A stretch of 33,333 nucleotides of DNA from Lachnospiraceae bacterium (GCA_024695205.1 JAILIQ010000132.1:1-33333); one strand, 5' to 3'. Counted from the stretch's first letter, positions 7,352 through 28,908 are shown. Numbers and translations are program-made. The notes: generated by a model from the sequence alone, not told the origin.

Positions 7352-7403
7352 TATAAAATCTCCTTCCGGATGCTTAAAATTATGCCTGCTGACGGCCTTG
7401 CTC

Positions 7404-8387: not shown

Positions 8388-8416
8388 TTTATTTCCTCCA
8401 TATTTCACGCATTTTC

Positions 8417-10006
8417 TTATACTTCTTTTTTCTCAGGTATCAGCTGATTGTATGAAAATGTTTTAAAGCATGCGTACTCAGGCTGTTCCCTGTCTTCGCT
8501 CAAATCCTTGGCAAACATTCCGACCGTACATCCCACAAAACCACCGGCAACTTCGGTTGAAAGAGCTGATATGTCGATATTTTTGATCAGCGGTTTGATC
8601 TCCGGATCGGTACGCATCGCAACACTTGCAGTCAGTCCGGTAACGCATAAGAGTAACACTACATAAGTAGAATTAAATCTCTCCGCGATCAGAAGTTCTT
8701 CGACTCCGCCTGTTGCACGCATAACATAGCAGATACCGTTTGATACCTCGATCCTGAGATGATATCTCTCGTTCTGGAACAGCATAAGTCCCGCCGATGC
8801 TCCGGTGTAGAGGTTTTCCGCACTGAGTATCACGCTGGCTTCGAACGAGTGGCTGTCCTGTCTGATCGAAAGGTATGATATCTTCTTTTTATCGGCAATA
8901 GGACCTTTTTCACATTTAAGGAAAAGCCCTCTGCCCGGCTTGAACATGTACATATCGGGATCGGGATTACGAAGTGCCATAAACTCCGAGCCAAGTTTAT
9001 TCATTGTCGTGAAGTCGTAATTCTTACCATATCCAGGCAGTGAATTCTGTGCATATACGGTTTCATACTCCGGCAGATCGATCACAAGCTCTTTGGTTAG
9101 AGTACCTATCCCTGCATTCACAAGGGGCCAGTCATTCTCCCAGACAACCCTTGCAAGGAATGTTTCTCGTCCCATCGTGGTAAATCCGTTAATGGACCTT
9201 ACCGCAAGCACGACCATATACCAGTCGCCTTTTGATGTCTTGAAAAGATCTCCGTGTCCTACGTAACGGATCGGATAGCGCTGACCCAGGTGTCTGTGTG
9301 TAAATATCGGATTAACAAAATCATTTTCATACGGTCCGAATACATTGCGGCTGCGCGCAACACAAACGGCATGCTCAGGACCGGTTCCGCCCTCTGCGTG
9401 AAGCAGATAATAATAATCTCCTATCTTGTACAAATGCGGACCTTCGGGCCAGTGGATACCCTTCATCGCACCGTTCCAGACATTGTATTTTTCTCCGACC
9501 AGTGTAAATGTCCTTATATCAAATTCCTGAATATATATATACCAGTCTCCGTCGTATTTGCATCCGTCGGGATTGGGATGTGTTCCGATGTAATAGCATT
9601 TTCCGTCATCATCGAAGAACAACGAAGGGTCTATTCCGTCCGCACCTTCTATGAAATGCGGTTCCGACCATTCTCCTGCAGGATCTGTTGCCGTTACGAC
9701 AAAATTACCGTTCGGAACACAGACATTGGTGCAGATCACGTAGAATACACCTTTGCTATATCTTATCGTAGGTGCAAAAAGTCCGCGGGATACTCCGGCA
9801 TGCTCAAGAGGAAGCGGAAGCTGGCTCTCTCTCGTCAGGACATTTCCGATCTGTTCCCAATGCGCAAGATCCTTACTGTGCATGATCGGCAGTCCGGGAA
9901 AATATGAAAATGAAGAATTTACCAGATAAAAATCATCTCCCACCGCGCATATCGACGGATCCGGATAAAAACCGGGAAGTATTGGGTTTTTTGCGATAAC
10001 GGTCAT
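8417..10006 (-). CDS. Glycoside hydrolase family 43 (beta-xylosidase/arabinofuranosidase-like) with C-terminal beta-sandwich domain
   Basis: MTVIAKNPILPGFYPDPSICAVGDDFYLVNSSFSYFPGLPI; candidate catalytic residues in FYPDPS, DGIDPSLFFDD and HWPEGPHLYK all present; RBS TTGGAGGC before ATG 10006. Confidence 0.9.
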   Translation of the reverse strand: MTVIAKNPILPGFYPDPSICAVGDDFYLVNSSFSYFPGLPIMHSKDLAHWEQIGNVLTRESQLPLPLEHAGVSRGLFAPTIRYSKGVFYVICTNVCVPNGNFVVTATDPAGEWSEPHFIEGADGIDPSLFFDDDGKCYYIGTHPNPDGCKYDGDWYIYIQEFDIRTFTLVGEKYNVWNGAMKGIHWPEGPHLYKIGDYYYLLHAEGGTGPEHAVCVARSRNVFGPYENDFVNPIFTHRHLGQRYPIRYVGHGDLFKTSKGDWYMVVLAVRSINGFTTMGRETFLARVVWENDWPLVNAGIGTLTKELVIDLPEYETVYAQNSLPGYGKNYDFTTMNKLGSEFMALRNPDPDMYMFKPGRGLFLKCEKGPIADKKKISYLSIRQDSHSFEASVILSAENLYTGASAGLMLFQNERYHLRIEVSNGICYVMRATGGVEELLIAERFNSTYVVLLLCVTGLTASVAMRTDPEIKPLIKNIDISALSTEVAGGFVGCTVGMFAKDLSEDREQPEYACFKTFSYNQLIPEKKEV

Positions 10007-10046
10007 AAATGCCTCCAAAAAAATATATTGCTGTATCAATAAAAGA

Positions 10047-10261: not shown

Positions 10262-11779
10262 TTACTTGTTAGCTGCATCAACATATGACTTCCAAGTATC
10301 ACGGATTGCTTCCTGAGCTGCTGCAACGTCAGCGTTAGGTCCGATACCCCACTGGAAATCGGGTCCAAGGTTAAGATCCGGAATAAGTCCGTGGTAAGCA
10401 ACTGTACCATGAGCAGCCTCAACCATCATAGGAACGGTCTCGTTCTTTGCTCTGTCATCGAAGTTACCATTCAGCTGTGCGTCAACAAGTACAGAGTTGT
10501 AATCCTCGAAACCGGGAACGGGCTCTGTGTAAAGGTTCCAAGCAAATGCAAGCTTGCCGGCCTTCATCTTGTCATAGTTTGAAGGAATAGCTACAGGGTT
10601 GTTAGACCAAACGTTAACAAGCTTACCCTGGGGTCCCTTCGGGAACATTACGAAGCCGATGTTACCAGCCATAGGTGCAAGGAAGTTGTTAGCGCCCATT
10701 GCTGCGTACTCATCTTCTACCATGAATCCAACTACACCACTAAGGAACTCTTCCTTGTAGTAATCCCACTGAACACCCTCAGGATCATGCTGATCGTACT
10801 TGTTGTACATATCAACTGCCCAGTTAAGAGCTTCTGTGGTCTGAGCGCTCTCAAGGTTGTAGAAGTATCCGTTGTTATCTTTGCCGATGTATGAACCATT
10901 GTTCGAGAAGATAGCTGCTGTGGTCATAACACCTTCGTTAACGGTAAGACCATAAACATCATCGACACCGTCTGAATCGGTATCTCTCTGAACCTTGCCC
11001 ATGTACTCATCGAACTTAGCCCATGTCCACTGATCATTCTTCTGAAGATCATAGATCTCGTTGGGATCGATACCAGCGTTCTTAAGAACTGTGGTATTGA
11101 AGTAAACACCTGTACGAGGCTCTGAAGCGCCTGCATACATACAATAGATAGCACCCTTCTTGCTGTACTGCTCATGAAGCAGGTTCTTCTGGAACTTGTC
11201 TTCGCTGAAGTCAAGTGCGGAAAGGGTTGAAAGGTCGAACATAAGTCCGTTGTTCATAGCTGATGTAACAGCAGGGTCATCACGAAGTGTGAATACGTAG
11301 TTGTTGCCATCATCCGGAATAGAAGCGTAATCAACGAAGTCCTGAGGAACTGTTCCCCAGTCGCCGATTGTGGTGCTCTCGATGGTGAAGTTGTACTCAG
11401 CCATGATCTCATCCCAGTAAGCATACTGAGCGGTATCGTAAGCGGTAAGGTTCTCTGTCTTTCTTCCGCTTGACCACCAGTCACGAACTACGATGTGCAT
11501 TCCACCGAGGTCGATCTTGTTGCCAAACTGGTCTACATAGATTCCGTCATCGTTAAGCTCGCAGTAGAACTCATCTGCGGGAACGTTCTTAACTTCCTTT
11601 GTAGGCTCAGGTGTTGTCTCAGTCTTTGTTTCCCCCTTGTTTTCCTCAGCCTTGGTAGGAGCTGCGGTAGGATCTGCGGGCTTATCTGCGCCAGAATCCT
11701 TAGTACAGCCGGCTGCGGTTACTGCCATAGCGGTTGCCATGAAAGCAGCAAAAATTCTTTGCAAATTTCTTTTTTTCAT
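10262..11779 (-). CDS. ABC transporter solute-binding lipoprotein (extracellular solute-binding protein family 1)
   Basis: Signal peptide with lipobox (AVTAAGC), Thr/Pro/Glu-rich linker, family-1 SBP motifs; start at 11779 (RBS AGGAGGA). Contains DTDSDGVDDVYG, a possible Ca-binding loop. Confidence 0.88.
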   Translation of the reverse strand: MKKRNLQRIFAAFMATAMAVTAAGCTKDSGADKPADPTAAPTKAEENKGETKTETTPEPTKEVKNVPADEFYCELNDDGIYVDQFGNKIDLGGMHIVVRDWWSSGRKTENLTAYDTAQYAYWDEIMAEYNFTIESTTIGDWGTVPQDFVDYASIPDDGNNYVFTLRDDPAVTSAMNNGLMFDLSTLSALDFSEDKFQKNLLHEQYSKKGAIYCMYAGASEPRTGVYFNTTVLKNAGIDPNEIYDLQKNDQWTWAKFDEYMGKVQRDTDSDGVDDVYGLTVNEGVMTTAAIFSNNGSYIGKDNNGYFYNLESAQTTEALNWAVDMYNKYDQHDPEGVQWDYYKEEFLSGVVGFMVEDEYAAMGANNFLAPMAGNIGFVMFPKGPQGKLVNVWSNNPVAIPSNYDKMKAGKLAFAWNLYTEPVPGFEDYNSVLVDAQLNGNFDDRAKNETVPMMVEAAHGTVAYHGLIPDLNLGPDFQWGIGPNADVAAAQEAIRDTWKSYVDAANK

Positions 11780-11941
11780 TTCTTCCTCCTTGTAAATTGA
11801 ATCGGCAAATGCCAATTTATTTAAATTGCGCGTACCGTACGGCCAAAAGTACATTCCGGGAGTCGCAGACGGTGTTGCAATTTAGATACATTTTTTTGAA
11901 TGGATCAGGAGTTTTGTAACTTAAAAAACATCACATGTTGG

Positions 11942-11970
11942 ATTATAGCATATCATTTTTCACATGTCTA
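11942..11970 (-). promoter_or_regulatory. Probable promoter for the lipoprotein SBP gene, flanked by TCACATGT direct repeats
   Basis: Minus strand TAGACA (11970-11965), 17-nt spacer, TATAAT (11947-11942); plus-strand TCACATGT at 11931-11938 and 11960-11967. Confidence 0.6.
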
Positions 11971-12093: not shown

Positions 12094-13158
12094 TCACATC
12101 TTGATACCGGTACTTGCCAGACTTTCAACGAACTGTCTCTGTGCAAACAGATACAGCAGTATGATGGGCGTAACGATCATCAAGGTACCTGTTGAAAGTA
12201 TCTGGTTCGAACGTGCTACGGATACCGAAGCCTGCGATGCTCCGTTACCGGTCTGGTTACGTGCTACCTCTACACCAAGACTCGCAACGATCGTTGAAAG
12301 GCTTGTGCTGACAAGGGTAAGCTTGCTCAGGAACAGTCTTGAATAGAAACCGTCTGTCCACTGCCATACAAATGCAAACAGGAAGCACGATGTAATGATG
12401 GGCTTCGCCTGAGGAAGCATGATCCTGAAGAATGTCCTTAATGTGCCGCATCCGTCGATATATGCCGCCTCTTCAAGGTCTACGGGGATGTTACGGAAAT
12501 ACTGTCTTACCAGATAGATATAAAGTCCGTTTTTAAGTCCCATGCATCCAAGACTCATCAGATAATACGGAACTGCCGAACCACGAAGGTTAAGAGTATT
12601 GCCCGTAATGGCCTTGATGATCCCGAGTACGTCAAACATACTGAAGTGCAGGAACAATGAAGTCGAAACCGTCTGCGGCGGAACCATGATCAGCAGCATA
12701 ACGAAAGCAAACCACATGTTCTTGAGCGGGAACTTAAAACGTGCAAATCCGTATCCTACCAGCGTCGTCATAGCTACCTGAATGAGCGCTATGGACAGGG
12801 AAACAATAAGTGAATTAACGATACCCTTGCTGTAATTCATGATCTTGGCCGAAAGGATATAATTATCAACATTCGGATGGAGCGGTATCGAAATAACTAT
12901 GGGATTATACAGGTCCTGCTCTGTCATGAAGCTGACAGAGATCTTGTTAAGAACGGGCTGAAGGATCAGGAATACCAGACCGAACAGCAGGATTCCTCTT
13001 ACGATGCTTATAAATACCGAAAGCACTTTTCTCCTGAGCAGATAACCATTGGTAAGCCGGTTTCTCTCCCAAAAGGTTCTCTCTACCACGGCGCCGTCTG
13101 AAGAAGCAGGGCTTACAGCAGTTATATTATTGTCTTTTTTTGCTTTATCTTTCGTCAC
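12094..13158 (-). CDS. Carbohydrate ABC transporter permease (MalG-type)
   Basis: EEAAYIDGCGTLRTFFRIMLPQAKPI is the EAA loop of binding-protein-dependent permeases; multiple TM helices. Confidence 0.9.
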   Translation of the reverse strand: MTKDKAKKDNNITAVSPASSDGAVVERTFWERNRLTNGYLLRRKVLSVFISIVRGILLFGLVFLILQPVLNKISVSFMTEQDLYNPIVISIPLHPNVDNYILSAKIMNYSKGIVNSLIVSLSIALIQVAMTTLVGYGFARFKFPLKNMWFAFVMLLIMVPPQTVSTSLFLHFSMFDVLGIIKAITGNTLNLRGSAVPYYLMSLGCMGLKNGLYIYLVRQYFRNIPVDLEEAAYIDGCGTLRTFFRIMLPQAKPIITSCFLFAFVWQWTDGFYSRLFLSKLTLVSTSLSTIVASLGVEVARNQTGNGASQASVSVARSNQILSTGTLMIVTPIILLYLFAQRQFVESLASTGIKM

Positions 13159-14095
13159 TGTAGTACACCACCTTTGAGATTAAGAATGAAGTTATACCGA
13201 TAAATGCCATTATCACTATGAAGTATATCCAGGCCATCGCCGATGCCGGCCCGTATGACTGTTTGCTGACCATAACAGTCTGGATCTTGTCGATAACCTG
13301 ATTATCGGAACGCATACAGAAATCAACTACCGTATATACCCAGTTAACCAGGAACAGCGAGCTTACCATCGGGAAGGTAACCTTCCAGAGGCTCTCCCAT
13401 GCGGTACATCCGTCGATACTTGCGGCTTCGTACAAGCTTGAAGATATCGTCTGCAAACCTGACAGGAAGATTATGATCTGGATACCGGAGGCCATCGCCA
13501 CATCATAGATATTGTCGATGACTTCGAAGACCGTTTCATAAGCTCTTACGCCGACTCCCGCAGTTCTGAGTATGGTCTCTAAGGCAGCCGTAACACTTAT
13601 TCCCTGAGTCGTGGTCTCAACTGTCTGCTCAAGAACCTGCATGTACTGGTTGTTCGACTCAAGACCGAGCATAACACCCGATGAAAGAATTACGGGAAGG
13701 AAGAATATGGTTCTTACAAGTGCCCTGCCCTTGAATTCCTGATTCAGGATCAGCGAAACAAAGAAGCTGAATACGATTATCGCAAATGTATATATCAGCA
13801 TTCGCGTCAGCTCCTCGGTCAGGAGCCTTAAGTATTCGGGATCCGTTCTCAGAGCGAACCTGTAATTCTCGATTCCGATCGGACTATATGATACATTTCC
13901 GCTGCTTAGGATAACATCGCAGAAGCTCATATAAAGCGAATGGAACAGGGGCTTGACCATGAATGCCAAGAAACCGATAATGAACGGAAGGATAAACAGA
14001 TATCCGGATATCGCCTTGCTCTTCGCAAGACCGTCCATCTTGCCTCTCTTACGCTTTTTCGGTTTTACTTCTGCCGTACTTACCTGATTTTTCAT
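13145..14095 (-). CDS. Sugar ABC transporter permease (MalF-type)
   Basis: YEAASIDGCTAWESLWKVTFPMVSS EAA loop; overlaps the next permease gene by 14 nt. Confidence 0.9.
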   Translation of the reverse strand: MKNQVSTAEVKPKKRKRGKMDGLAKSKAISGYLFILPFIIGFLAFMVKPLFHSLYMSFCDVILSSGNVSYSPIGIENYRFALRTDPEYLRLLTEELTRMLIYTFAIIVFSFFVSLILNQEFKGRALVRTIFFLPVILSSGVMLGLESNNQYMQVLEQTVETTTQGISVTAALETILRTAGVGVRAYETVFEVIDNIYDVAMASGIQIIIFLSGLQTISSSLYEAASIDGCTAWESLWKVTFPMVSSLFLVNWVYTVVDFCMRSDNQVIDKIQTVMVSKQSYGPASAMAWIYFIVIMAFIGITSFLISKVVYYSDER

Positions 14096-14134
14096 ATCAA
14101 ATACTGCCCTTTCTTTTGAGCTATTTATTACTGT

Positions 14135-16729
14135 TTATCGAACCGCCTTATAGTTTCTGGCAGGAACCAGTGTTCCGTCCGGTGCAGTGTAATCTGCGAA
14201 ACTGTAGTTGACATATACCCTGGTACCGTCTGCATATACGGTACATGATACTTCGTTTGTCAGCTTCTCGTGATCGATCATTTCCTGATTGAAGATTCCG
14301 CCGAGTTCTTTGTTGTAATTATTGTAAATGGTACTGATCCTGTCCTTCCAGTTAGTGTACTCACATCCGTAATACTTGGTGTAGAGCGTATCCTGAAGGA
14401 TGAATGCGTCCTCATGCATAACAGTGAACATCAGACCTGCTCCGTATTCCGCGGAATAAAGGATCTCGTCTTCGATGTTGCCGCAGATATTAAGAGGCTC
14501 ACCGGTATAATTTACATAACCGTGTAATGCAAGCTGGAAGAACGGTATGTTCTTATCAAGGATCGTATACTGGCTTCCCGAAAGATCCGTCTCAACGATC
14601 ATGTCTACATAAGGAACGGCGTAATCATTACCCATTACGACGATCTGCTTCATACCCGAATCATTGACTGCTTTAAGTTTCTCGGTCTGAAGTTTCTTGG
14701 CTTTTTCACGGCTCACAGGATTCTTCTTGTAGAAATCGGAAGAAAGATCCATTCCGACATCTTCATAAGCGATTCCCGAATTATACTTGTCGCCGGCACC
14801 CTTAAGGGTATCCATCATCTCAAGTATCCTGTCGGGATGAAGCAGGAAGAAGCTGTCTGTACCCTCTCTTAACGCATAAGTTACGGCACTGAAAATATGG
14901 AGCTCAGCTCTCTGCTTGCCGACGAATTTGGCTGCATCCGTATAGGAGAAGAAGCCGTCAAACAGGTTGCTGTTGTAAGCATACTGTGTGATACCGTTCA
15001 GGCAGAGATCTATATTAAGATCCTTTGCGGTCTTTGAAAGCTTATCAAGTCCTTTCTTACCGCCAAGCTGTGAAAGAACCCTGGCCTTCGTAAGAACTTC
15101 CTGATTTACTCCGCCGTTGCACCATCCGGACAGCCTTACCGTGATATTGTTCATACCGTCGTTCTTTAACGATTTTAAAATATCTTCAGCCTGTTCAAAT
15201 GTTGTAAGAGCCAGAGGACGGGAAACGGGAATACCCATTACCTGTCTTACCTTATCAGCGGCGCCTACAATATCAAATACAACAGGAGCTTCTGTATCGG
15301 TATTGAGTGTCAGGTAGCTGCCGTATCTGTCTTTAAGATATGAGCCGTAAACCTTGGCCATATCAACGTAACTGCCCGAATCGATAAATCTGTATCTCTG
15401 TACGAGTGACTCGTCCTGAGGAAGATTCTCGTTAAATCCATAGATATCACTGGATGAGATCTGTCCTACATCATACTGCTCACGAGCCTTGATGGTGTAA
15501 AGAGCATTGACGAAATTGTAGCTGTGTACCCTGCCGCTTATATCGGCCTGGATACCTGCATATGAGGCGCCCTCTTCGATGAGGCAGATGAATGAGTCAT
15601 TGCCTTCCGAAATTCCGAAAAGGTTGTAATAAGCACGTGTATCATGAACGAGGTCATTCTTCTTCAGACAGATATCACGTCCGTAAACATTTGAGAAATA
15701 GTTGTTCTGAGAGTTCCTTCCGTTGTTGAAGTTGATCAGCGCTCCGCCGCCTTCCGGAACAAGGAGGAAACCTTCCTTATCGGTACCTGCGGCTCCGAAG
15801 TACGGAAGAACCGTAAGGTTTGTCACTCTGTATGATGAGGGGCTCTCAATGCTTGAGATGGGGACTTCCGCAATAAGATCGCTGCCGTCAAGCCTGTAGG
15901 TAACATCAACTCTGAAGATGGGCTTGTCACTGGTATTTTCAAGATTAACAAGAGCTTTGTCAGCCTCATAATCGGCTTCGGTATATCCTAAGTCTGCCAG
16001 TATGTTTTCAAGTGAAGGTTTACCGCCGGAAGCAGCCTCAAGTACATATATGGGTTCTTCTTCGATCATAGGATACTTTGCGATAAGATCCTGTTTCTTT
16101 TCTTCGTCCTTAACCTTCTTAAGATCATACTTGGTATACATACCCTGAATGTAGATCTTCTTGTTCATGTCAAGACCTGCGGTCAGTTCCTTGAATCTGT
16201 CCTCGGTCATCATAGGAGGTATGATATACTCTCTTTCGATATCACCTAATGAATAATGAACCGTTATATAGTCCGAACCCTGCTCGATATCATAGATACC
16301 GCGCGATGTGCTGAAAGAATACGAATCATACAGCGTATCAAGACCGTTCTGAGTGGTATGGTTGAGCAGTATCTCAGACTTGAGCTTGCCTTTTTCCGAC
16401 ATTTGGGCAATAGGGTCTGTATCTGCGCCATGAACCGATGAAGTCCACTCCTTGCCGCTTGACTTGACAAGCAGCGTAAAGTTGGTCGTCAAAGGGTCCA
16501 TCGTAAGCCTGAGCTTATCATTTTCGATGACGATGGGTTCCTCACTGCCTTCATATTTTTCGGGAATGACCGAAGGTTCATCGTCCTCTGCAGCACCGAA
16601 ACGTACGATCAGAAGAACGGCTACCACGATCACCGCAACGAAGACCAGAGGAAAGATCATGCTCTTCAGCGTTTTCTTAAACTCATTTATTCTTTCTCGT
16701 TTTACTTCAGGATTAATGTCTCTTCTCAT
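14135..16729 (-). CDS. DUF5696-like membrane-anchored protein (putative beta-sandwich + TIM-barrel, glycosidase-like)
   Basis: 864 aa; single N-terminal TM (MIFPLVFVAVIVVAVLLIVRF), long ectodomain, genomic neighbourhood typical of DUF5696. Family name from memory, fold inferred. Confidence 0.7.
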   Translation of the reverse strand: MRRDINPEVKRERINEFKKTLKSMIFPLVFVAVIVVAVLLIVRFGAAEDDEPSVIPEKYEGSEEPIVIENDKLRLTMDPLTTNFTLLVKSSGKEWTSSVHGADTDPIAQMSEKGKLKSEILLNHTTQNGLDTLYDSYSFSTSRGIYDIEQGSDYITVHYSLGDIEREYIIPPMMTEDRFKELTAGLDMNKKIYIQGMYTKYDLKKVKDEEKKQDLIAKYPMIEEEPIYVLEAASGGKPSLENILADLGYTEADYEADKALVNLENTSDKPIFRVDVTYRLDGSDLIAEVPISSIESPSSYRVTNLTVLPYFGAAGTDKEGFLLVPEGGGALINFNNGRNSQNNYFSNVYGRDICLKKNDLVHDTRAYYNLFGISEGNDSFICLIEEGASYAGIQADISGRVHSYNFVNALYTIKAREQYDVGQISSSDIYGFNENLPQDESLVQRYRFIDSGSYVDMAKVYGSYLKDRYGSYLTLNTDTEAPVVFDIVGAADKVRQVMGIPVSRPLALTTFEQAEDILKSLKNDGMNNITVRLSGWCNGGVNQEVLTKARVLSQLGGKKGLDKLSKTAKDLNIDLCLNGITQYAYNSNLFDGFFSYTDAAKFVGKQRAELHIFSAVTYALREGTDSFFLLHPDRILEMMDTLKGAGDKYNSGIAYEDVGMDLSSDFYKKNPVSREKAKKLQTEKLKAVNDSGMKQIVVMGNDYAVPYVDMIVETDLSGSQYTILDKNIPFFQLALHGYVNYTGEPLNICGNIEDEILYSAEYGAGLMFTVMHEDAFILQDTLYTKYYGCEYTNWKDRISTIYNNYNKELGGIFNQEMIDHEKLTNEVSCTVYADGTRVYVNYSFADYTAPDGTLVPARNYKAVR

Positions 16730-16775
16730 AACAGCTCCAATTTATTCATTAGTTTAAAGATGACCGTTGCGAGCT

Positions 16776-17432
16776 TTACAATCGGAACAGCAGCTCTTTA
16801 CCCAGCGAAACAAAATATGCGATACCCTGTGATATCATACTGAAGAACAGCATCAGGATGAAAATGATGATCAGCATTGCAACAAGCGAAGCAAACATGA
16901 ACAAGATGTTCTTGGCACCGGAGTATTCATGTATCTGCCCCATAGCAACCACGATCAGGATTCCCGCATAAACAAGCGAAATGGTGTTAAGCGTTGTATA
17001 GAACTGCGCTTCATCAACAGTAACGAAATTACTGAATATCGTGATCGGAACCATGACAACCGAATAAGGGAGCATGCCGTAGCAGGTAGCCATATAAACC
17101 TGACCGAGCCTTCCTTTTCCGTCGAACAGTGTCGTAAGTGCCCAGTTACCGACAACAAACAGAGCCAGAGGAAAGATGATACTTGCAATGTACAGGAAAA
17201 TGTTGATCTCTTCCCAGTTTACCACCTGAATTACGAAGCCGGTATACTTAAGTGACAGCAGTCGAACCATAACGGTAATAAACAAAATCGTATTGGCTGC
17301 GGCATAGGTCCCGCGCTTCTCATGCGTCAGATCCCAGAAACCGTCCATCGGATGGCTCATGCAATAAAACGCGAATTTCAGCGAATCAAGATACTTGTGA
17401 AATTTATCACTCTTGAATATAGCTATTTCCAT
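16776..17432 (-). CDS. Yip1-family multi-pass membrane protein
   Basis: 218 aa; several TM helices with Yip1-like spacing (HPMDGFWDLTHEKRGTYAAANTILF...FDGKGRLGQVYMATCYGMLPY). Confidence 0.75.
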   Translation of the reverse strand: MEIAIFKSDKFHKYLDSLKFAFYCMSHPMDGFWDLTHEKRGTYAAANTILFITVMVRLLSLKYTGFVIQVVNWEEINIFLYIASIIFPLALFVVGNWALTTLFDGKGRLGQVYMATCYGMLPYSVVMVPITIFSNFVTVDEAQFYTTLNTISLVYAGILIVVAMGQIHEYSGAKNILFMFASLVAMLIIIFILMLFFSMISQGIAYFVSLGKELLFRL

Positions 17433-17486
17433 ATCTACTCTTTCTCCACTCTATAATTATTTAGCTCCGATGAAACGAAACCGTTG

Positions 17487-18986
17487 TCATTTGAAATACT
17501 CTGCTGTACTGATCTCGTATTTGGCACGTTTAATGAATTTGATAATGCCGGGTATCAGTACCAGGGCCAGGATAACACCGATCACCCATACAATATGGTC
17601 TTCAACCCATTCTTTTCGATATTGCTTAAACGCCTTTGAATAATTGTCGGCATCATATTTGAGCTTAAAGTACTTCATTGCTTCCTTGTACTTCTTCTGA
17701 CGGAGCAATGCACGTCCGATACCGATGTAGGCAAGGTAGTAGTTACCGTCAACATCCATGACCTTCTGCCAGCAGTCACCGGCTTCATCGTAAAGACCAA
17801 GGTCGAATGCATCTACCGCCTGATAGATATTCTTACCGAAATCGGTACAGGTAAAGATCGTGATCGCACAGTCAAGATAGTCAAGAACGAACAGATCGTA
17901 ACCGATATGCTCTATTGCAGTGGGACGTCTGAAATAACCGTCCATATTGCCGTTGCCGCCGAATGCGAATACCAGACGGCCCTGCTCATCGTAACCGAAG
18001 ATCCTTCCGCGGTTCTTATCGAGACAGCAGTAAATATCATTATCAAATACCGTTATATCAGTTAAAAGTGAAGGTCCTGAATATCCGCCGCCGCTTCCGA
18101 AATAGATGTCACCGATGATCGGAACTTCCTCGTAGCCGTTACGGATAAGAATGTCGCTACCAAGCAGATTAAGCTTTCTTACCGCATCTGCCGAACCGCT
18201 TCTTAAGTCAGCTTCTTCCTGACCGTCCTGAACCGTATAGATAAAGCCTTCTTTATCCATATAAAGGTTATCGTACTCTGTAGGAACAAAGCTCTTCATC
18301 TGGGCACGTGCTTCCTGTGAAGCGAAGAATTTCCAGATATAATCCCAGAAATCGTATACCACGGGAGTTGCTCCCACGAATCCGGAGAATACGCCATCGG
18401 GCTCATATTTAACAAGACCCTTGTTGATACCTGTAGCAAGGCAGTAAACACGCTCTGCCGAATCGATTACAAGCTTCGAAGGAAGGAATGTAAGCTCGGG
18501 ATCGAGTGTTGCTTCATTCGGCTTGTCAAACTGCATGATATAATTAAGATCGGAATCCAGCTTCAGAATTCTGGAATTGTTCTTGTCGGCAATGAACACA
18601 TTACCTTCCTCGGAAATGGCGATATCCGTAGGTCCGGCAAACGTATTGGGTCCGGGACCGCCGTTAAAGCTGTCTATGATCCTTACGACCTCAAGATTCT
18701 CGGCAGAAACACGGTTCAGCTCGATGATCCTGTTATTGCCGGTATCACACAGATACAGCGAATTACCGTACGCATACAGACCTTCGGGCTGCTTGATCTT
18801 CACATCAAGACCAAGATCCGAAGATGTAAGAACCTTGCTTACGGTGTATGCATCCGGACTCTCCTGATACTCACCCCAGAAATCATAGACATATGTATAG
18901 CTGGTCTCAGCCAGTGCACTCACAGGTGCACATACAAGAATGATAGCCAGAAAGGCCGCCGTAAATCTAATCAAATTCTTCTTCAT
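17487..18986 (-). CDS. Secreted NHL-repeat beta-propeller protein with TPR segment and C-terminal TM anchor
   Basis: Signal peptide (MKKNLIRFTAAFLAIILVCAPVSALA), NHL motifs (PEGLYAYGNSLYLCDTGNNRIIEL; PTDIAISEEGNVFIADKNNSRILKL), TPR-like C-terminus, TM WVIGVILALVLIPGIIKFI. Start at 18986 has GAGG RBS. Confidence 0.78.
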   Translation of the reverse strand: MKKNLIRFTAAFLAIILVCAPVSALAETSYTYVYDFWGEYQESPDAYTVSKVLTSSDLGLDVKIKQPEGLYAYGNSLYLCDTGNNRIIELNRVSAENLEVVRIIDSFNGGPGPNTFAGPTDIAISEEGNVFIADKNNSRILKLDSDLNYIMQFDKPNEATLDPELTFLPSKLVIDSAERVYCLATGINKGLVKYEPDGVFSGFVGATPVVYDFWDYIWKFFASQEARAQMKSFVPTEYDNLYMDKEGFIYTVQDGQEEADLRSGSADAVRKLNLLGSDILIRNGYEEVPIIGDIYFGSGGGYSGPSLLTDITVFDNDIYCCLDKNRGRIFGYDEQGRLVFAFGGNGNMDGYFRRPTAIEHIGYDLFVLDYLDCAITIFTCTDFGKNIYQAVDAFDLGLYDEAGDCWQKVMDVDGNYYLAYIGIGRALLRQKKYKEAMKYFKLKYDADNYSKAFKQYRKEWVEDHIVWVIGVILALVLIPGIIKFIKRAKYEISTAEYFK

Positions 18987-19027
18987 ATATAGCCTCATTT
19001 AGCAAATGATATTATGAAACCCGTTGA

Positions 19028-19933
19028 TCAATCCTTCATACCGGAGCTTGCCATTGTTTCAAGTATCTGAGTCTGCGAGAAAACGAACAGCGCGATCGGA
19101 ACAACCATCAGAACTACCGTAACGGCCGCAGCCTGACCGGTTCTTGCAATACCGCCGCCCTGGATCTGTCTCATCGCAAACGGGAGCATCTTCTTCTCTT
19201 CCGAGAAGATAACCGTTGATGCTGTCTGGTTCCAGAGACCCTGAACCGAGAAGATTATAAGTGTCATCCACGCGGGCTTAACATTCGGCATAACGATCGA
19301 GGAAAATACCTTCCATTCACTCGCTCCGTCGATCTTCGCAGCCTCGACCAGAGACATCGGAAGATTCTCCATGAACTGCTTCATAAGGAAGAGTCCCATC
19401 GGGGAAGCAAATGCGGGAATGATGATCGCCCAGTATGTATCGATCCATCCCAGTTTGCTCAGGAGGATATAGTTCGGGATACCGGTAACGTAACCGGTGA
19501 ACATGATCGCGGTCGTAACGATCTTGAAGAATCCTCTCGAACCGGGGAATTCATACTTCGAAAGAACGAACGCACCCATCGAAGCAAAGATCAGATGGCC
19601 CGCGGTACCGACCGCCGTGATAAAGATCGTGTTGAACAGGTATCTCGTAAATGTAACCCACGATTTACCCATCGTAACAAACAGGTCGGAGAAATTGTGA
19701 AGTGTGGGATGCAGCGCCAGGAATCTCGGAGGATTCTTGAACAGCTCATCAAGAGGCTTCAGTGCATTCGCTACGGCGAAAACGATAGGGAATGCCATTA
19801 TGACAGCCATCAGCGTCAGGAAAATGTAAAGCGCAACGTCACCGCCGACCGAACGGTTGGGTTTTCTTCTCCGTATCAACGGCTTATGATACTCTTTTTG
19901 AATAAGTTCTTCTTTTTTATTACGTTTACTCAT
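19028..19933 (-). CDS. Carbohydrate ABC transporter permease (MalG-type)
   Basis: VEAAKIDGASEWKVFSSIVMPNVKPAW EAA loop; start at 19933 supported by TTGGAG RBS. Confidence 0.9.
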   Translation of the reverse strand: MSKRNKKEELIQKEYHKPLIRRRKPNRSVGGDVALYIFLTLMAVIMAFPIVFAVANALKPLDELFKNPPRFLALHPTLHNFSDLFVTMGKSWVTFTRYLFNTIFITAVGTAGHLIFASMGAFVLSKYEFPGSRGFFKIVTTAIMFTGYVTGIPNYILLSKLGWIDTYWAIIIPAFASPMGLFLMKQFMENLPMSLVEAAKIDGASEWKVFSSIVMPNVKPAWMTLIIFSVQGLWNQTASTVIFSEEKKMLPFAMRQIQGGGIARTGQAAAVTVVLMVVPIALFVFSQTQILETMASSGMKD

Positions 19934-19989
19934 CTTTAAGTCTCCAAAATGTTTATATGTCAATAACTGTTAACGCCGGACTGTGTTTA

Positions 19990-20928
19990 TCAGGTTCCCA
20001 CTCTTCTGATCAGACTCTGGATAGCCTTGTTTGTTACAACCATGATCAGGAAAAGGATAACTGCGATCGCACAGGCATAACCCATCTCAAATCTTGAATA
20101 ACCGTAGTCAAAAAGGTGAGTTACAATTGTTCTTGCGGCATAATCCGTACTGGGATATCCGCACAGCGTCATTGTTACATCGCATACATTAAATGATGAG
20201 GTGATCGTCATTACCGCACCGAACACGAGCATGGGCTTCATACTGGGAAGTGTGATGTACCAGAGCTCCTGCCAGCGGTTCTTGACACCGTCGATCATAC
20301 CGGCTTCTATCTGCGCCGGATCAACGCCCTGAAGACCTGCAACGAATGAAAGGAATCCGGCACCAAGGCTCATCCACAGGATAACCAGCATACATATAGG
20401 AAGCATGTAGGTAGGGTTGATGAAGAACAGGATAGGTGAATCGATAAGACCCATCTCTATCAGTCTTGAATTGACCATACCGTAAGCATCGCCACGGAAT
20501 ACGATCGAGAAGATCGCGTAACAGGTACCTGCAAGCGAAGGTGCGTAAAAGATAACAACCGCAATGCTTCGTACCATTCTCGGAAGCTCATTGATGAGCC
20601 ATGCGAAAAGGAATGATGCGATATAACCCAAAGGACCGGTTATAACTGCGATCATGAAGGTATTCTTGATACCTATCAGGAATATATCATCTTCGAGAAT
20701 AAGACTGATATAGTTCGACAGACCCAGAAATCTCGGAGATTCCAGAATATTGAAATAAGTAAAGCTGTAGTATATTGATGCCACAACGGGATAAATGAAG
20801 AACATCGCAAATACTATGGCATACGGAAGCAGGAAAAGGTAGCACATTTTTGCCATCTTGGCCTTCTTCAATGCCACAGAGAAGTTATGTCTCTTCAGCT
20901 TGATATAATTAGTAAAAAAATCTTTCAT
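19990..20928 (-). CDS. Sugar ABC transporter permease (MalF-type)
   Basis: IEAGMIDGVKNRWQELWYITLPSMKPM EAA-like loop; six TM helices; start 20928 with GGAGG RBS. Confidence 0.9.
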   Translation of the reverse strand: MKDFFTNYIKLKRHNFSVALKKAKMAKMCYLFLLPYAIVFAMFFIYPVVASIYYSFTYFNILESPRFLGLSNYISLILEDDIFLIGIKNTFMIAVITGPLGYIASFLFAWLINELPRMVRSIAVVIFYAPSLAGTCYAIFSIVFRGDAYGMVNSRLIEMGLIDSPILFFINPTYMLPICMLVILWMSLGAGFLSFVAGLQGVDPAQIEAGMIDGVKNRWQELWYITLPSMKPMLVFGAVMTITSSFNVCDVTMTLCGYPSTDYAARTIVTHLFDYGYSRFEMGYACAIAVILFLIMVVTNKAIQSLIRRVGT

Positions 20929-21028
20929 CAGTTGCCTCCATACCACTTACATTCACAGGTCTGTTGCTTTTGATCATACGGGATGATCACTGCTGCGAAA
21001 ATTAAAACAGATAAACTTGTTCGAAGGA

Positions 21029-24022
21029 TCAATCGAGTTCGTCTATCGGAAGACCGAACTCCTTACGTTTCTTTATGATCTCCTCATCTATCAGGATCGA
21101 GTAGTCGATGATCGATTCACGGGTATCAACTCTGGTGTTGATTACCTTTCTGATAGCGTTGGAAATATGACGTCCGGTAAAGTATCCGCCGGGTACCTCA
21201 CGGATTCCCCTTGTCCAGGCCCACTGGGCTTCAAGTGTAGCTATATCGTTCGCGCTCCATGAAAGGCTTGAGAACGCGCGTCTGTTAGCTGTGTTGTATC
21301 TTGCGGACGAACCGAGAAGAGCTTCGATCTCACGTCCGAATCTTACCTGGGTCTCAGGTTTTGCCCACCACTTCATGAACTCCCATGCGTTGTTCTTAAG
21401 TGTCTGGTTTTCGGTTCTGAGCATCATCGTTGCAGCACCGGTAATGAAGTCGGATCTGTCGATAAATGTCTCGCCGTTCGCATCAACCTTCTCTGTACCG
21501 GGGATAAGGGTGAAGTCCCAAAGTCCTCTGATCTCGGGAGCCGAAACCATCAGAGTGTTATAGGTCGAATAAGGTGCGATACCGATAGGCATCTCGCCCG
21601 AACGGAATCTGGTAGCAAAGTCATATACGGTCGGAAGTCCGTAATCGTTGAAATATCTTACGTAATCATCGAAAGCCTTCATTCCGGCTTCGTCATTGAC
21701 CGTAGTCTTGGTTCCCGCTTCATTGTACATATCGCCGCCGTTCTGGAACAGCAATGTGAAATACAGTGAAAGGTCAGGTGTATTGGACATAACGGCTGTT
21801 GACGCCACACCGGTCGAACTGCTTCCTGCTGCGGAAGGGATACCGATCGAAAGGTTGTTGCCCTGAATGGTGGGAAGCATCTCGATCAGTTCTTTCCAGG
21901 TATTGGGGATTCCCAGTTCAAGCTCTTCAAGAACATCCTTACGGTAGAACATTACGTTGAAAGTCTGAGTCTCCGGTATACCGTAGATATGTGTAACACC
22001 GTTTATATCATCAAGCTCGTACTGCTTGTAGGAGCTTTCGGAATAATCTGCAAATACGTTCTGCCATCCGTCAAACTGAGTCAGATCCTCGGATGCACCT
22101 CTTAATGCGTAGTTTACAGGCTGGTCGGCGCCGACTGTCAGTGCTACGTTGGGGCCGTTGCCCGACATTACCGCATTCAGAAGGGCTCCTGCGTCAACGA
22201 TCTCAACATTGACCGGAATACCGCTGTTGGGAGTAAAGTCATCATCGATCATCGACTTAAGGATCGTACCCTGATCACGACCGGTCATGACCCAAACCTT
22301 TATTACACTGTTGTCCGCATCCGTATAGACATCTCCTACGGAATTGTAATCAACGAAATAGGAAGCAACGAAGGATTTTACTTCATGCCATGCTTTTGAG
22401 AAAATGTTGGCCTTCTGTGCCTTAACATTTACATCCGAGCTTGATATTACCAGATAATCTACATCGAACTTGCTCTCGCTGAGGGTAATAGCCGAAGTAC
22501 CGATAGCAGTTATGTTATCCTTAAATGTCTGGAACTCTGTCGTGATCTTCTGGGGCTTGCTCACAAATCTCTCAAGCTGTGTCGCCAGAGTCTGGCAGGT
22601 TGCTATGCTCTCTGCCTTCTGTCCGCTGTAATCAACCATGTCGTCAACTATCTTGAACAGTCTCCTGCTCTCAACATCCATGGCTTCGATAACCTCGGGA
22701 TAGGCCGACTCGATATGATAGTCACGATACTTGTCGGGGCTGGCTCCGGTATAAACAAGAAGCCTTCTGTATATCTGATTGAGACGGAAGGTTGAATCCT
22801 CCATTTCCTCAAGGATCGATCCGAGACCGCCGAGAGTCGCCTCAAGTCTTATCGTATGCTTTCCTGCAGGGAGGTAGATGTCATAGGGATTACCGTCAGC
22901 ATCCGAAAGTGTCATGTTCTGCCAGTCATTGTCATATTTGAAAATAACTGCCGAGAGCTCTTCGAAAGGAACCTTGCCGTCGATCAGGACCTTCCTGTTG
23001 GCTACGTTACCGCGTGAATAGTTCTGACGTCCCTTGACCATGATGCGATAGAAGCCGTCCGAAGGAACCTCAAAGTTCCACTCGATCCACTGTCCGTTGG
23101 TCTTCCATGCCTCACCGCCGATATAATTAAGAACTGTATAGGTTACACTGTTGGGTTCCGTTGTAGGTGATGATCTGTCAAACTTCGCATATAACGACGA
23201 CTCCGAACGGAGTGATGAATCCTCGCCCTGGAGCTTGATCTCAACAGCCGATGCCGAATTGCCCTTGCCGGAATTCTGTGCTTTGTAATCAGCATATGTA
23301 AATTCCTTTTCAACCGGAGCAAGCTTGACCGCACCGATGATCAGCGGTTCGTTTTCTGCGGAAAGAGTGATAACATTGTTGCCGCTTTCAAGGAAGAATT
23401 TGTATGGCTTGTTCTCATATCCGCGGACATCGCTGAGTCTGCAGCTCTGCCAGTCGTACTGCTCGATCTGCTGGGGTCTGATCTCATTGCCCTGGTTGTC
23501 GATCTTCTTCTGACCGCCATCCTTCCAGATACGTGCAAAGCTGACATTCTGGGCATCCTCAAAAGGAAGGCTGCCGTTGATGCTGATGCTTCGCTCGGCG
23601 GGAACTCCGTGAGACTCGGGGATAACATACTCAACATAAATATTGTAGAATCCCGAAGTCGGAACATTGACATTCCAAGACACCGTAGAATTGAGTCCGG
23701 TATAAACAGCAGACTGCGCACCGAAAGACTTGCCGTATCCTGCAAGCTCTCCCGCAGAAAGCAGATTCACATCGCCCTCGCCCTGAAAATCGGCAACATT
23801 CACGGATACCTCCGCATCGGGATAAGCAGCATCAGAATGAGAATTAAGATAATCCCTGTATGTTCCGGTCCTCTCCAATCCTTCAATCTGCCTGTTCAGA
23901 TCAAAATCCCGATACTTGCCCTCAAAAGTCTCGTTACCGCTTAAATTCAGCAATACGCACACCAATACGATCGCTGCGATAACTCCCAGGGTAATAAGCA
24001 ATTTTTTAACTGAATCTTTCAT
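21029..24022 (-). CDS. TM-anchored solute-binding protein fused to two N-terminal carbohydrate-binding-like beta-sandwich modules
   Basis: 997 aa; N-terminal TM without lipobox, two homologous modules (aa ~73-237 and ~260-410), C-terminal family-1 SBP (VKVWVMTGRDQGTILKSMIDDDF...NVMFYRKDVLEELELGIPNTWKELIEML). Confidence 0.82.
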   Translation of the reverse strand: MKDSVKKLLITLGVIAAIVLVCVLLNLSGNETFEGKYRDFDLNRQIEGLERTGTYRDYLNSHSDAAYPDAEVSVNVADFQGEGDVNLLSAGELAGYGKSFGAQSAVYTGLNSTVSWNVNVPTSGFYNIYVEYVIPESHGVPAERSISINGSLPFEDAQNVSFARIWKDGGQKKIDNQGNEIRPQQIEQYDWQSCRLSDVRGYENKPYKFFLESGNNVITLSAENEPLIIGAVKLAPVEKEFTYADYKAQNSGKGNSASAVEIKLQGEDSSLRSESSLYAKFDRSSPTTEPNSVTYTVLNYIGGEAWKTNGQWIEWNFEVPSDGFYRIMVKGRQNYSRGNVANRKVLIDGKVPFEELSAVIFKYDNDWQNMTLSDADGNPYDIYLPAGKHTIRLEATLGGLGSILEEMEDSTFRLNQIYRRLLVYTGASPDKYRDYHIESAYPEVIEAMDVESRRLFKIVDDMVDYSGQKAESIATCQTLATQLERFVSKPQKITTEFQTFKDNITAIGTSAITLSESKFDVDYLVISSSDVNVKAQKANIFSKAWHEVKSFVASYFVDYNSVGDVYTDADNSVIKVWVMTGRDQGTILKSMIDDDFTPNSGIPVNVEIVDAGALLNAVMSGNGPNVALTVGADQPVNYALRGASEDLTQFDGWQNVFADYSESSYKQYELDDINGVTHIYGIPETQTFNVMFYRKDVLEELELGIPNTWKELIEMLPTIQGNNLSIGIPSAAGSSSTGVASTAVMSNTPDLSLYFTLLFQNGGDMYNEAGTKTTVNDEAGMKAFDDYVRYFNDYGLPTVYDFATRFRSGEMPIGIAPYSTYNTLMVSAPEIRGLWDFTLIPGTEKVDANGETFIDRSDFITGAATMMLRTENQTLKNNAWEFMKWWAKPETQVRFGREIEALLGSSARYNTANRRAFSSLSWSANDIATLEAQWAWTRGIREVPGGYFTGRHISNAIRKVINTRVDTRESIIDYSILIDEEIIKKRKEFGLPIDELD

Positions 24023-24393: not shown

Positions 24394-25422
24394 TCAGACC
24401 ATCTCCGCAAGATCATAGATCATCTTTTCGGTTTTTTCCCATCCGAGGCACGCATCGGTAATGGACTTGCCGTAGATGCCCTCTCCGATCTTCTGACAGC
24501 CGTCTTCTATGTAGCTTTCCACCATAAATCCCTTTACGAGCCTGCGGGCGTTGTCATTGAATTTCCTGTATCTCATGACTTCATCGACTATCCTCACCTG
24601 CTCGAAAGGATTCTTGTTTGAATTGGCATGATTCGTATCGATCACTACCGCGGGATTTTTCAGGTCCGATTTCTCATACAGTTCGTTCAGATACATAACA
24701 TCTTCATAATGATAATTCGGAAATGTCTGGTCGCCTTTTGTGTTGAATCCGCGCAGGATCGCATGCGCATATTCGTTGCCCGCAGAATGTCCGGTCCAGC
24801 CGCGGTACAGGAATGTGTGTGGCCTCTGGGCGGCATGGATCGAATTCATCATTACCGAAAGATCGCCGCTTGTGGGGTTTTTCATCCCGACAGCTGCCTC
24901 TACCGCGCTCGCCGTCAGCCTGTGCTGCTGATCTTCGACAGACCTTGCACCCACAGTCACATATCCCAGGATATCATCAAGATACTTGTAATTTTCGGGA
25001 TAAAGCATCTCATCGGCGCAGGCAAAGCCCGTCTCCTTCACCGCTCTCATATGGAGCTCGCGGGTTGTGATGATCCCCTTGAAAAGATCCGGTTTTTCAC
25101 CGGGTACCGGAGAATGCAGAAGTCCCTTGTATCCGTCTCCCGTGGTGCGTGGCTTGTTGGTATAGACCCTCGGAACGATAAATACCCTGTCTTCCACCTT
25201 TTCCTGAACTTTCCTGAGCCTCAGGATATAATCGATCACCGCGTCCTCCCTGTCTGCGGAGCAGGGTCCTATCACAAGCAGGATGCGTTCATCCCTTCCG
25301 GAAATGATCTTCTTGATCTCCTCGCGTTTTTTCTCAATGGTCGTCTGCACGGCCGCATCTATAGGGAACATCTCCTTTACCTCCATGGGTATGGCGATCT
25401 TCCTCTCAAATTCCATATTCAT
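24394..25422 (-). CDS. 3-deoxy-7-phosphoheptulonate synthase (DAHP synthase, AroF/G/H class)
   Basis: LLVIGPCSADREDAVIDYILRL, VPRVYTNKPRTTGDGYKGLLHSP, GMKNPTSGD and DTNHANSNK motifs. Confidence 0.94.
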   Translation of the reverse strand: MNMEFERKIAIPMEVKEMFPIDAAVQTTIEKKREEIKKIISGRDERILLVIGPCSADREDAVIDYILRLRKVQEKVEDRVFIVPRVYTNKPRTTGDGYKGLLHSPVPGEKPDLFKGIITTRELHMRAVKETGFACADEMLYPENYKYLDDILGYVTVGARSVEDQQHRLTASAVEAAVGMKNPTSGDLSVMMNSIHAAQRPHTFLYRGWTGHSAGNEYAHAILRGFNTKGDQTFPNYHYEDVMYLNELYEKSDLKNPAVVIDTNHANSNKNPFEQVRIVDEVMRYRKFNDNARRLVKGFMVESYIEDGCQKIGEGIYGKSITDACLGWEKTEKMIYDLAEMV

Positions 25423-26739: not shown

Positions 26740-28908
26740 TCAGTTTCCGGTCTCTTCGTTTACAAATTCACCCGCCGGACTGGTGTATAATATCTTAACC
26801 GTAACATTGTCGAGATAAAAATCGTCAGTGTTTCCGGGTGCTTCCCAGTAGAAGCGGTAGCTTCCGTTATCCATATTGGAGTACAGAGTCATGTACCCTT
26901 CAGCATGATACCACTTCCCGGCTTCCATGTTCTCGCACACCACTCTGTCATTCTCGCCCGAAGGATACCATGTTCCGCCGTTACAGGTAAATGTGGGCGT
27001 ACACGAGATGCTTCCTCCGTTTTCGAGCATACAGTCATAAGATACATACATCATATAACCGTAATTGTTGAAATAATCGTTCGAAAGCCCTATTCCGTTC
27101 CACTCGGCGCTTCTTCCGGTTACGGCAAGACAGCCCTTCCCGTCTGAGCCGCCGTCGGCTTTAAGATTTCCCCTGCTGCTTCCCATCTCCGTAAATGCAG
27201 TCAGGTCCTCCGCCGAATCAAACGCAGCCTGTACAATCACAATATCTTCTTCCGGTGCTTCTGCAACGATCTCTTCGGTGATAACATCATTTTCATAAAC
27301 AACAGGAGTAACTTCAGGCACCCGGACCGGTGTATCTCCGGGATATCCGGTAATATCTACCGAAATGACCGATCTGGCCGGGATCAGAATGCCCCCGGAC
27401 GGATCATACGCCCCGACATTTTGGAAGCACTTTTCCTCTGATTCGCATTCTTCGCCGAACTCGCTCAGATATACGGTGCTGTCGGTGATCGTATAGTCTT
27501 TGGGGTCCAGGATATATGAGAATTCCCTGTCCGAATTGTTAACCAGGACAACCGCAAGCTTATTCCCATAGGGCGAAATAAACGCGCATACCTTGGCGCC
27601 CGAATCGGCCGCAGCGGCATCGACCCTTGTATATCCGGGTCTTATAAACTGCGAATAATGGCGCATCGCATAATAATTTGCGCTGAGACGCCAGTTGCCT
27701 GCATTATCGACATCAACCAGATGGAATGACTCAAACAGACCGGGCGTCGAATCATCCCACACACCGCTCCAGTACAGATATGCCGTCATATCCGCATAAG
27801 TAAGTGCGTAATACAGCAGTTCCGAGGTCTGGATCCCTTTGCCGATGTAGTATTCGGTCTGCCAGCGCCTGATGTCGCCAAAATTGTTCTTTATACCCGA
27901 AAAATTGGTCATAAATGAACTCGGCTTCACCGTATTGGTTGAAGAATCCCCGGTTCCTCCGACGTAGAGGTGATATGCAACACCTTCAAGCGCTTCGGGT
28001 CTTTCTTTCAGAATGTCTCTTGTATAATTGAGAAGATCGGTCGTAGTACAGCTCATACTCTCGGGTCCGAGCATCCGCGGCGCGTCGTCTCCGAATTCCG
28101 CATGGATAGCATCATAAACGGCTATAAACGCCTTTGCATACGAAGCCTTATCGGCGGTTTCTTTCGGTCCGAACAGACACCCTTCATAATCGTCAGGAGC
28201 AAAATCCACTTCATTCTGGATCGAGAGATAATCAAACCTTATTCCGTACGACATGTAGTATTTAAGCGATTCCACCCACCAGTTGGCATACTCGTCGTAA
28301 ACAAACCTGCCGTCTTCATGTTTTGCGAGAGTTCCCGAACCTTTGGCAATGGAATTGTCGGATTTCAGATATGCGGGAGGGGACCAGCAGCACATGAGGA
28401 CATAAACCTTTTCACCGTACTTTGCAGCCCTTTCCCTGGCTTCCTTATAATTTCTCGCCATGGTAACGGCATTTGAAGCCTTATCCTGCACATGATAATT
28501 ATATTCGTTCTTGACTCTGAGTATGGTAAGCTTAGCGTCGCTGAACAGGGCATCAAGTCCCGCTTCGGCATTTTTGGCGTTCAACAGCCTCTCACCGTAC
28601 CAGGTATATGCGGCACCGAAGCCGTCCATAGTCTGATACGTTACAGACGGATCGATCACGATCGCAGGAAGATCCGCTCTCATATCCTGACTGCTGCCGT
28701 CTCCTGTTGCACCGGGCACCGGAGCATCATCCGCTCCGCCGGCATTTTCGGCATTAGCACCGTTTTCCGTATTATTGCCTCCCGGCTGCGAATTCTGTAC
28801 TTCGCTGCCGTTCCCGGTATTCTTGGTACAGCCCGTTATTGCCACGGCAAGAGACAGAATAACAGCCAGTGTCAACGTACAGATGTGGTTAAAAGCTTTA
28901 ATCTTCAT
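26740..28908 (-). CDS. GH30-family glycoside hydrolase lipoprotein (xylanase-like) with C-terminal carbohydrate-binding-like domain
   Basis: Lipobox AVAITGC; MDGFGAAYTWYGERLL, MCCWSPPAYLK, LSIQNEVDF (acid/base), WQTEYYIG (nucleophile), AYLYWSGVWDD. Confidence 0.87.
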   Translation of the reverse strand: MKIKAFNHICTLTLAVILSLAVAITGCTKNTGNGSEVQNSQPGGNNTENGANAENAGGADDAPVPGATGDGSSQDMRADLPAIVIDPSVTYQTMDGFGAAYTWYGERLLNAKNAEAGLDALFSDAKLTILRVKNEYNYHVQDKASNAVTMARNYKEARERAAKYGEKVYVLMCCWSPPAYLKSDNSIAKGSGTLAKHEDGRFVYDEYANWWVESLKYYMSYGIRFDYLSIQNEVDFAPDDYEGCLFGPKETADKASYAKAFIAVYDAIHAEFGDDAPRMLGPESMSCTTTDLLNYTRDILKERPEALEGVAYHLYVGGTGDSSTNTVKPSSFMTNFSGIKNNFGDIRRWQTEYYIGKGIQTSELLYYALTYADMTAYLYWSGVWDDSTPGLFESFHLVDVDNAGNWRLSANYYAMRHYSQFIRPGYTRVDAAAADSGAKVCAFISPYGNKLAVVLVNNSDREFSYILDPKDYTITDSTVYLSEFGEECESEEKCFQNVGAYDPSGGILIPARSVISVDITGYPGDTPVRVPEVTPVVYENDVITEEIVAEAPEEDIVIVQAAFDSAEDLTAFTEMGSSRGNLKADGGSDGKGCLAVTGRSAEWNGIGLSNDYFNNYGYMMYVSYDCMLENGGSISCTPTFTCNGGTWYPSGENDRVVCENMEAGKWYHAEGYMTLYSNMDNGSYRFYWEAPGNTDDFYLDNVTVKILYTSPAGEFVNEETGN

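Follow-up and report, generated by a model that had tools for sequence, protein, structure and literature searches.

A conserved cassette of two CUT1-type permease pairs with NHL/TPR, Yip1-family and DUF5696 proteins in gut Clostridia, and its possible role in glycan uptake

Introduction

Among described systems, the closest are the CUT1 importers with a shared ATPase, in which a substrate-binding protein (SBP) is combined with two permeases carrying the EAA motif, as in the MsmX-dependent AraNPQ and YtcQP-YteP and in MalFGK2-MalE. It is established that MsmX of B. subtilis is one ATPase serving several sugar importers; its gene lies apart from those of the importers, which belong to a context of plant cell-wall oligosaccharides (PMC5730181). 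In Gram-positive polysaccharide utilisation loci, such as the MLG locus of Blautia producta, an ABC importer is found beside glycoside hydrolase genes, often together with an AraC regulator; the Blautia locus has a single importer with its own ATPase, and the searchable part of its description contains no NHL, Yip1 or DUF proteins (PMC10318527).

Here, we analysed a window of 33,333 nucleotides, the whole stretch of Lachnospiraceae DNA under study (GCA_024695205.1 JAILIQ010000132.1:1-33333), which holds an eight-gene cassette followed by a lipoprotein SBP gene. The cassette shares with MsmX-type importers the SBP, the EAA-motif permeases, the remote ATPase gene and the plant cell-wall context, but differs in that two permease pairs and two SBPs are placed together, one SBP is tethered by a transmembrane (TM) segment and carries two CBM modules, and three dedicated membrane-anchored accessory proteins are present. 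In the open-access journal literature searched, no publication on the cassette was found, nor any paper on DUF5696 or joining Yip1, NHL and ABC proteins in this context. The cassette is real and widespread and, within that literature, undescribed, the last of which the sequence-only reading had already suggested.

Results

The eight genes occupy positions 12094-24022 on the minus strand and are transcribed in the order SBP997, p4, p3, NHL/TPR, Yip1, DUF5696, p2 and p1, after which the lipoprotein SBP530 follows (Table 1). Their number, strand and families had been read from the sequence at the outset and are borne out by the coordinates and by Pfam, which finds BPD_transp_1 in all four permeases, PF18952 in the DUF5696 protein (E 3e-188), Yip1 (E 4.8e-11), NHL (E 3.1e-10, with a weak TPR match), and SBP_bac_8 together with CBM_35 in the 997-aa SBP. 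The predictions also agree that the accessory proteins are membrane-anchored with apparent extracytoplasmic domains, because one N-terminal TM segment is predicted in DUF5696 (as in SBP997), a signal peptide and a C-terminal TM segment in the NHL protein, and several TM segments in Yip1.

Table 1 Features of the cassette and its downstream neighbours in the window
Feature	Position	Strand	Remarks
SBP997	21029..24022	-	TM at the N terminus, followed by a duplicated pair of CBM35-like beta modules, a helical bundle and an SBP domain of maltodextrin type at 570-988
CUT1-type permease p4	19990..20946	-	EAG motif
CUT1-type permease p3	19028..19963	-	EAA motif
NHL propeller + TPR protein	17487..18998	-	Signal peptide, C-terminal TM; fused to Yip1 at other loci
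Yip1-family polytopic membrane protein	16776..17432	-	Pfam match, TM prediction
DUF5696 protein	14135..16729	-	N-terminal TM anchor and GH129-like fold; Val698 at the GH129 acid/base position
CUT1-type permease p2	13145..14095	-	EAA motif
CUT1-type permease p1	12094..13158	-	EAA motif
Promoter-like site 5' of the lipoprotein SBP	11942..11970	-	TAGACA-17-TATAAT, TG ahead of second hexamer; consensus match only
SBP530, lipoprotein SBP	10262..11854	-	Lipobox form starts at about 11779; most variable cassette part
GH43 + GH43_C2 protein (beta-xylosidase/arabinofuranosidase type)	8417..10039	-	Downstream gene; present in 16 loci

The genes are closely spaced, with gaps of 82, 26, 29, 54, 46, 39 and -14 nt in transcription order (the last being an overlap), and the median gaps over 132 loci are 12, 1, 12, 3, 16, 14 and -8 nt, followed by 135 nt to the lipoprotein SBP. 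In the window SBP530 starts 239 nt after p1; within this gap, at 11970-11942, lies the region's top promoter-like match (11/12), although such matches are no commoner across the region than in shuffled sequence (20 vs 26.8).

The EAA motif E-A-A/G-x-x-D/E-G is kept in p1-p4 (119-129 aligned sequences), consistent with two permease pairs of CUT1 type. The predicted structure of SBP997 (pLDDT 86.1) consists of a TM segment at 2-27, beta modules at 72-236 and 261-396, a helical bundle at 400-556 and an SBP domain at 570-988. The two beta modules align with a score of 135 vs 31 +/- 5.5 (maximum 57) for shuffled sequences, which upholds the duplication first noticed by eye. The SBP domain is of maltodextrin type (VIA Z 35.8 to MalE3 and 35.2 to 5ysb); it is close in fold to maltodextrin- and beta-1,2-glucooligosaccharide-binding proteins, a similarity that does not identify the ligand. 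SBP530 weakly resembles an arabino-oligosaccharide-binding protein (6rjy, E 3e-5). No MalK-type ATPase was found in 132 cassette neighbourhoods. A cassette-encoded ATPase was considered and rejected, as the neighbouring ATP-binding genes score at most 116.7 bits against an MsmX-like query and belong to other ABC classes. Four OB_MalK genes lie elsewhere in the window's genome, so that a MalK/MsmX-type ATPase is available.

The comparison covered 60 loci from class genomes and 80 named loci from Lachnospiraceae (including Butyrivibrio, Acetatifactor and Roseburia), Lachnotalea, Clostridium sp. 12(A), Christensenella and several Treponema; the named loci were found with a close DUF5696 set, a broad DUF5696 alignment having no conserved stretch. 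Butyrivibrio proteoclasticus P6B7 and Butyrivibrio sp. AE3009 and MC2021 are among the carriers. About 150 loci (Clostridia, other Bacillota, Treponema) show near-identical gene order, often with the lipoprotein SBP next in line, an arrangement far beyond chance given its recurrence at nearly all of them; the genes absent from it seem mostly to reflect contig ends or opposite-strand frames from the simple ORF caller. A 3021-aa DUF5696 frame at one locus (L227) was left out, as several frames on both strands are open in that stretch. Among 291 class genomes, DUF5696 scores above the cut-off in 77, SBP997 occurs in 63 (adjoining the NHL cassette, or on separate contigs in fragmented genomes), and 80 of 83 NHL copies have DUF5696 at most 8 kb away, the other three fitting contig breaks. 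All 61 NHL-bearing genomes also carry DUF5696 (table 61/0/4/226, Fisher p = 1.5e-58, a value that overstates independence because the genomes are related). The proposal that NHL, Yip1 and DUF5696 form one unit with the permease pairs therefore passes the gene-neighbourhood check, both in kept order and in co-occurrence, and chance or hitchhiking co-location is ruled out on the same grounds. On this comparison, the cassette is a real operon, conserved in numerous gut Clostridia and in some Treponema. NHL was found in 27 of 299 genomes of a phylum-wide sample, some with at least five copies. Full or near-full cassettes also occur in Treponema/Spirochaetia MAGs (L189, L191, L193, L198), where an argininosuccinate-lyase-like gene and amino-acid-type SBP and ABC genes lie immediately downstream; horizontal transfer of these cassettes is possible.

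The claim of a single eight-gene unit holds only in part, since the block is conserved but some loci do not have SBP997-p4-p3. These genes are absent from minimal cassettes in other Bacillota (L224, L228, L231 and L241, as well as L223 and L226). At L226 NHL+Yip1 comes after p1, and L223, L224 and L228 adjoin GH106, apiosidase-like, WbsX, DHDPS or PdxA genes. Judged from the gene content of these loci, the minimal unit is NHL/Yip1 and DUF5696 with p2/p1 and the lipoprotein SBP, and thus the two importers need not work jointly. Divergence rises from the permeases to DUF5696 and SBP530, the median identities (percent) being 68-70 for p3/p4, 57-58 for p1/p2, 55 for SBP997, 53 for Yip1, 49 for NHL, 41 for DUF5696 and 38 for SBP530, a pattern suggesting that recognition parts vary on a chassis that stays fixed.

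The predicted structure of the DUF5696 protein is good (pLDDT 88.6) and resembles GH129/DagB-type glycosidases (NagBb 5wzn; DagB 5opq, 8rzk) over its whole length, sharing their beta-sandwich, TIM barrel and C-terminal beta domain. In a profile search of PDB, DagB is matched at E 9e-15 and NagBb only weakly; Foldseek places DagB on top (E 1.2e-36), and in VIA alignment of residues 65-864 six entries, all GH129 or DagB, reach Z 27.1-28.4 (28.4 for 5wzq, 27.3 for 5opq), followed by an unrelated GH13 at 19.1. With an hhalign probability of 98.3, the overall GH129 fold is well recovered. The protein differs from those glycosidases in its TM anchor, its identity of 12-18 percent, its catalytic residues and its link to ABC permeases; the GH129 family PF11308 matches neither the window DUF5696 protein (PF18952 alone at E <= 0.01) nor anything in the window's genome.

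The sequence-only reading had allowed for trimming of glycans by the accessory proteins, which the comparison does not bear out. In a profile alignment with GH129 proteins, the nucleophile corresponds to Asp657 and the acid/base Glu to Val698; the catalytic pair is incomplete in the window and is kept in only 2 of 47 wider-family members and 1 of 51 close relatives, which disfavours an ordinary active GH129. The full-length fold, and Asp at position 657 in 42 of 51 close relatives (47 counting Glu), would be compatible with an exo-glycosidase active at the cell surface, which would trim side chains with an acid/base located elsewhere and be kept by the importer through NHL/Yip1. Such a relocated acid, for example Asp725 (conserved in 51/51 close relatives and 39/47 of the wider set), is conceivable because the active site of DagB departs from the catalytic residues of NagBb and yet DagB is active (PMC5698469). 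However, roughly half of the wider family lacks Asp657, the acid/base position is occupied by N, K, V, A, S, D or E, and no barrel acid is invariant over the 47-member family, so that we consider this explanation unlikely. Because the GH129 pair is rarely kept and the window has Val at the acid/base position, DUF5696 is probably a non-catalytic glycan binder rather than a trimming enzyme, although one of the conserved acids elsewhere in it (Asp725, Asp665, Glu761) might serve as a relocated catalytic residue. Some further DUF5696 matches (e.g. G052:C14, G177:C200, G004:C96) form a second class, with proteins of about 565-600 aa that cover only profile positions 187-612; these unanchored or shorter relatives possibly have active GH129-like enzymes among them.

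At 29 of 122 loci, NHL/TPR and Yip1 are fused into a single reading frame, and the Yip1 part of these fusions matches the YIP1 HMM at E 1e-50 to 1e-83. The genome that contains the window has such fusions in its cassettes on C150 and C359, and on C240, where the fusion is cut by the contig end. On a p1+p2 tree at least 8 switches between the fused and split states are needed, of which well-supported branches force 5. Together with the predicted NHL C-terminal TM segment (468-486), the fusion implies that the propeller/TPR part would be extracytoplasmic and attached to the polytopic Yip1 part.

Propeller and TPR are common protein-interaction folds, which would also suit a surface glycan sensor or importer-regulating gate made of NHL-TPR-Yip1 and DUF5696 and standing outside the uptake path. 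Upstream AraC regulators, seen at 22 other loci, are in line with such a sensor, but the flanking regulator is not constant. In the window, no regulator gene adjoins the cassette, and only a PadR gene is present, at 1411. The cassette encodes no kinase, receiver, sigma or anti-sigma domain detectable by Pfam, and the tight linkage to p2/p1 persists in minimal cassettes, so that this role seems rather improbable. Least likely of all is that NHL-TPR-Yip1 serves to assemble or fold the cassette's permease group and does not handle glycans: Yip1-family and TPR proteins frequently have roles in membrane-protein trafficking or assembly and there is about one NHL copy per cassette, but not every cassette would have to encode such a factor, and some genomes have at least five NHL copies, each one examined belonging to a cassette.

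Flank genes across the loci encode GH43, GH10, GH5, GH130, GH115, GH9, CBM65 and GDSL esterases, and a GH43/5/9/10/115/130 gene is found in the flanks of at least 55 of 132 loci, which places the accessory genes among those for glycan degradation. In the window, the sugar-transporter genes are accompanied by a GH43 gene downstream and by GH5 (31335-32384), GDSL and GH30-like (26740-28908) genes on the upstream side. These neighbours weakly suggest xylan or arabinoxylan as the substrate, an assignment that is unsure because the GH flanks differ between loci.

Discussion

Taken together, the comparisons incline us, if only slightly, to see the cassette as a machine dedicated to capturing plant cell-wall glycans at the surface and importing them. 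NHL-TPR-Yip1 would be an integral scaffold at the outer face of the membrane next to the p2/p1 importer, while DUF5696 would use its degenerate active-site cleft to grip a glycan chain, leaving it uncut. Neighbouring secreted glycosidases would release oligosaccharides, which SBP530 and SBP997 would bind and hand on to p2/p1 and p4/p3, both driven by a shared MsmX-type ATPase. As the fastest-diverging parts, DUF5696 and SBP530 would set the substrate preference, and the permeases, SBP997 and NHL/Yip1 would form the common chassis. The glycan-capture interpretation with which the analysis began thus survives as a conserved, anchored unit amid glycan-degrading genes, but without its trimming step.

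A more ambitious and tentative reading, possible rather than probable, is that all eight or nine products assemble into a single surface complex with more than one importer, which would make it the Gram-positive counterpart of Sus systems. The pseudo-glycosidase and the CBM-bearing SBP would then hold the glycan on the NHL-TPR-Yip1 membrane scaffold, and the two ABC importers would draw products from one captured chain. The likeness to Bacteroidota Sus-type systems is one of analogy: both pair a fixed surface module with a glycan specificity that varies, and genomes carry many copies of either, but the cassette is without a TonB-dependent transporter, its energy being given by ABC permeases, and no SusC/SusD domain is found among the window's main predicted genes.

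The cassette is present in about a fifth of the sampled class genomes (61/291), in other Bacillota and in Treponema, some genomes having at least five copies, and it neighbours genes of hemicellulose and pectin breakdown. If the capture-and-import role is true, the cassette would be a missing piece in the competition of fibre-degrading Gram-positive gut bacteria for plant cell-wall glycans, and DUF5696 and the bacterial Yip1/NHL protein would gain testable roles.

Several other genes near the cassette were also observed. The GH30-like gene encodes a 722-aa minus-strand protein with only a partial match to the GH30 TIM barrel (159-234, E 6e-7) and is possibly a divergent GH30-like enzyme. Upstream of the cassette, the window carries a DAHP synthase gene (24394-25422, minus strand) with no evident tie to glycan uptake, relatives of which have the same position in seven other loci (L104, L114-L117, L123, L159). 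At L155, L136, L137 and other loci, the genes 3' of the lipoprotein SBP encode HlyD-like proteins (about 15 loci) or an FtsX-like permease (about 10 loci). Two neighbouring, mutually similar minus-strand ORFs of the window (6395-7459 and 7404-8408) have no Pfam match (E <= 0.01) and no PDB match; they share the Cys motif C-P-CPKR/CPRR-EHY, and their relatives, 50 genes in 32 of the 132 cassette loci, show a weak match to Peptidase_U32.
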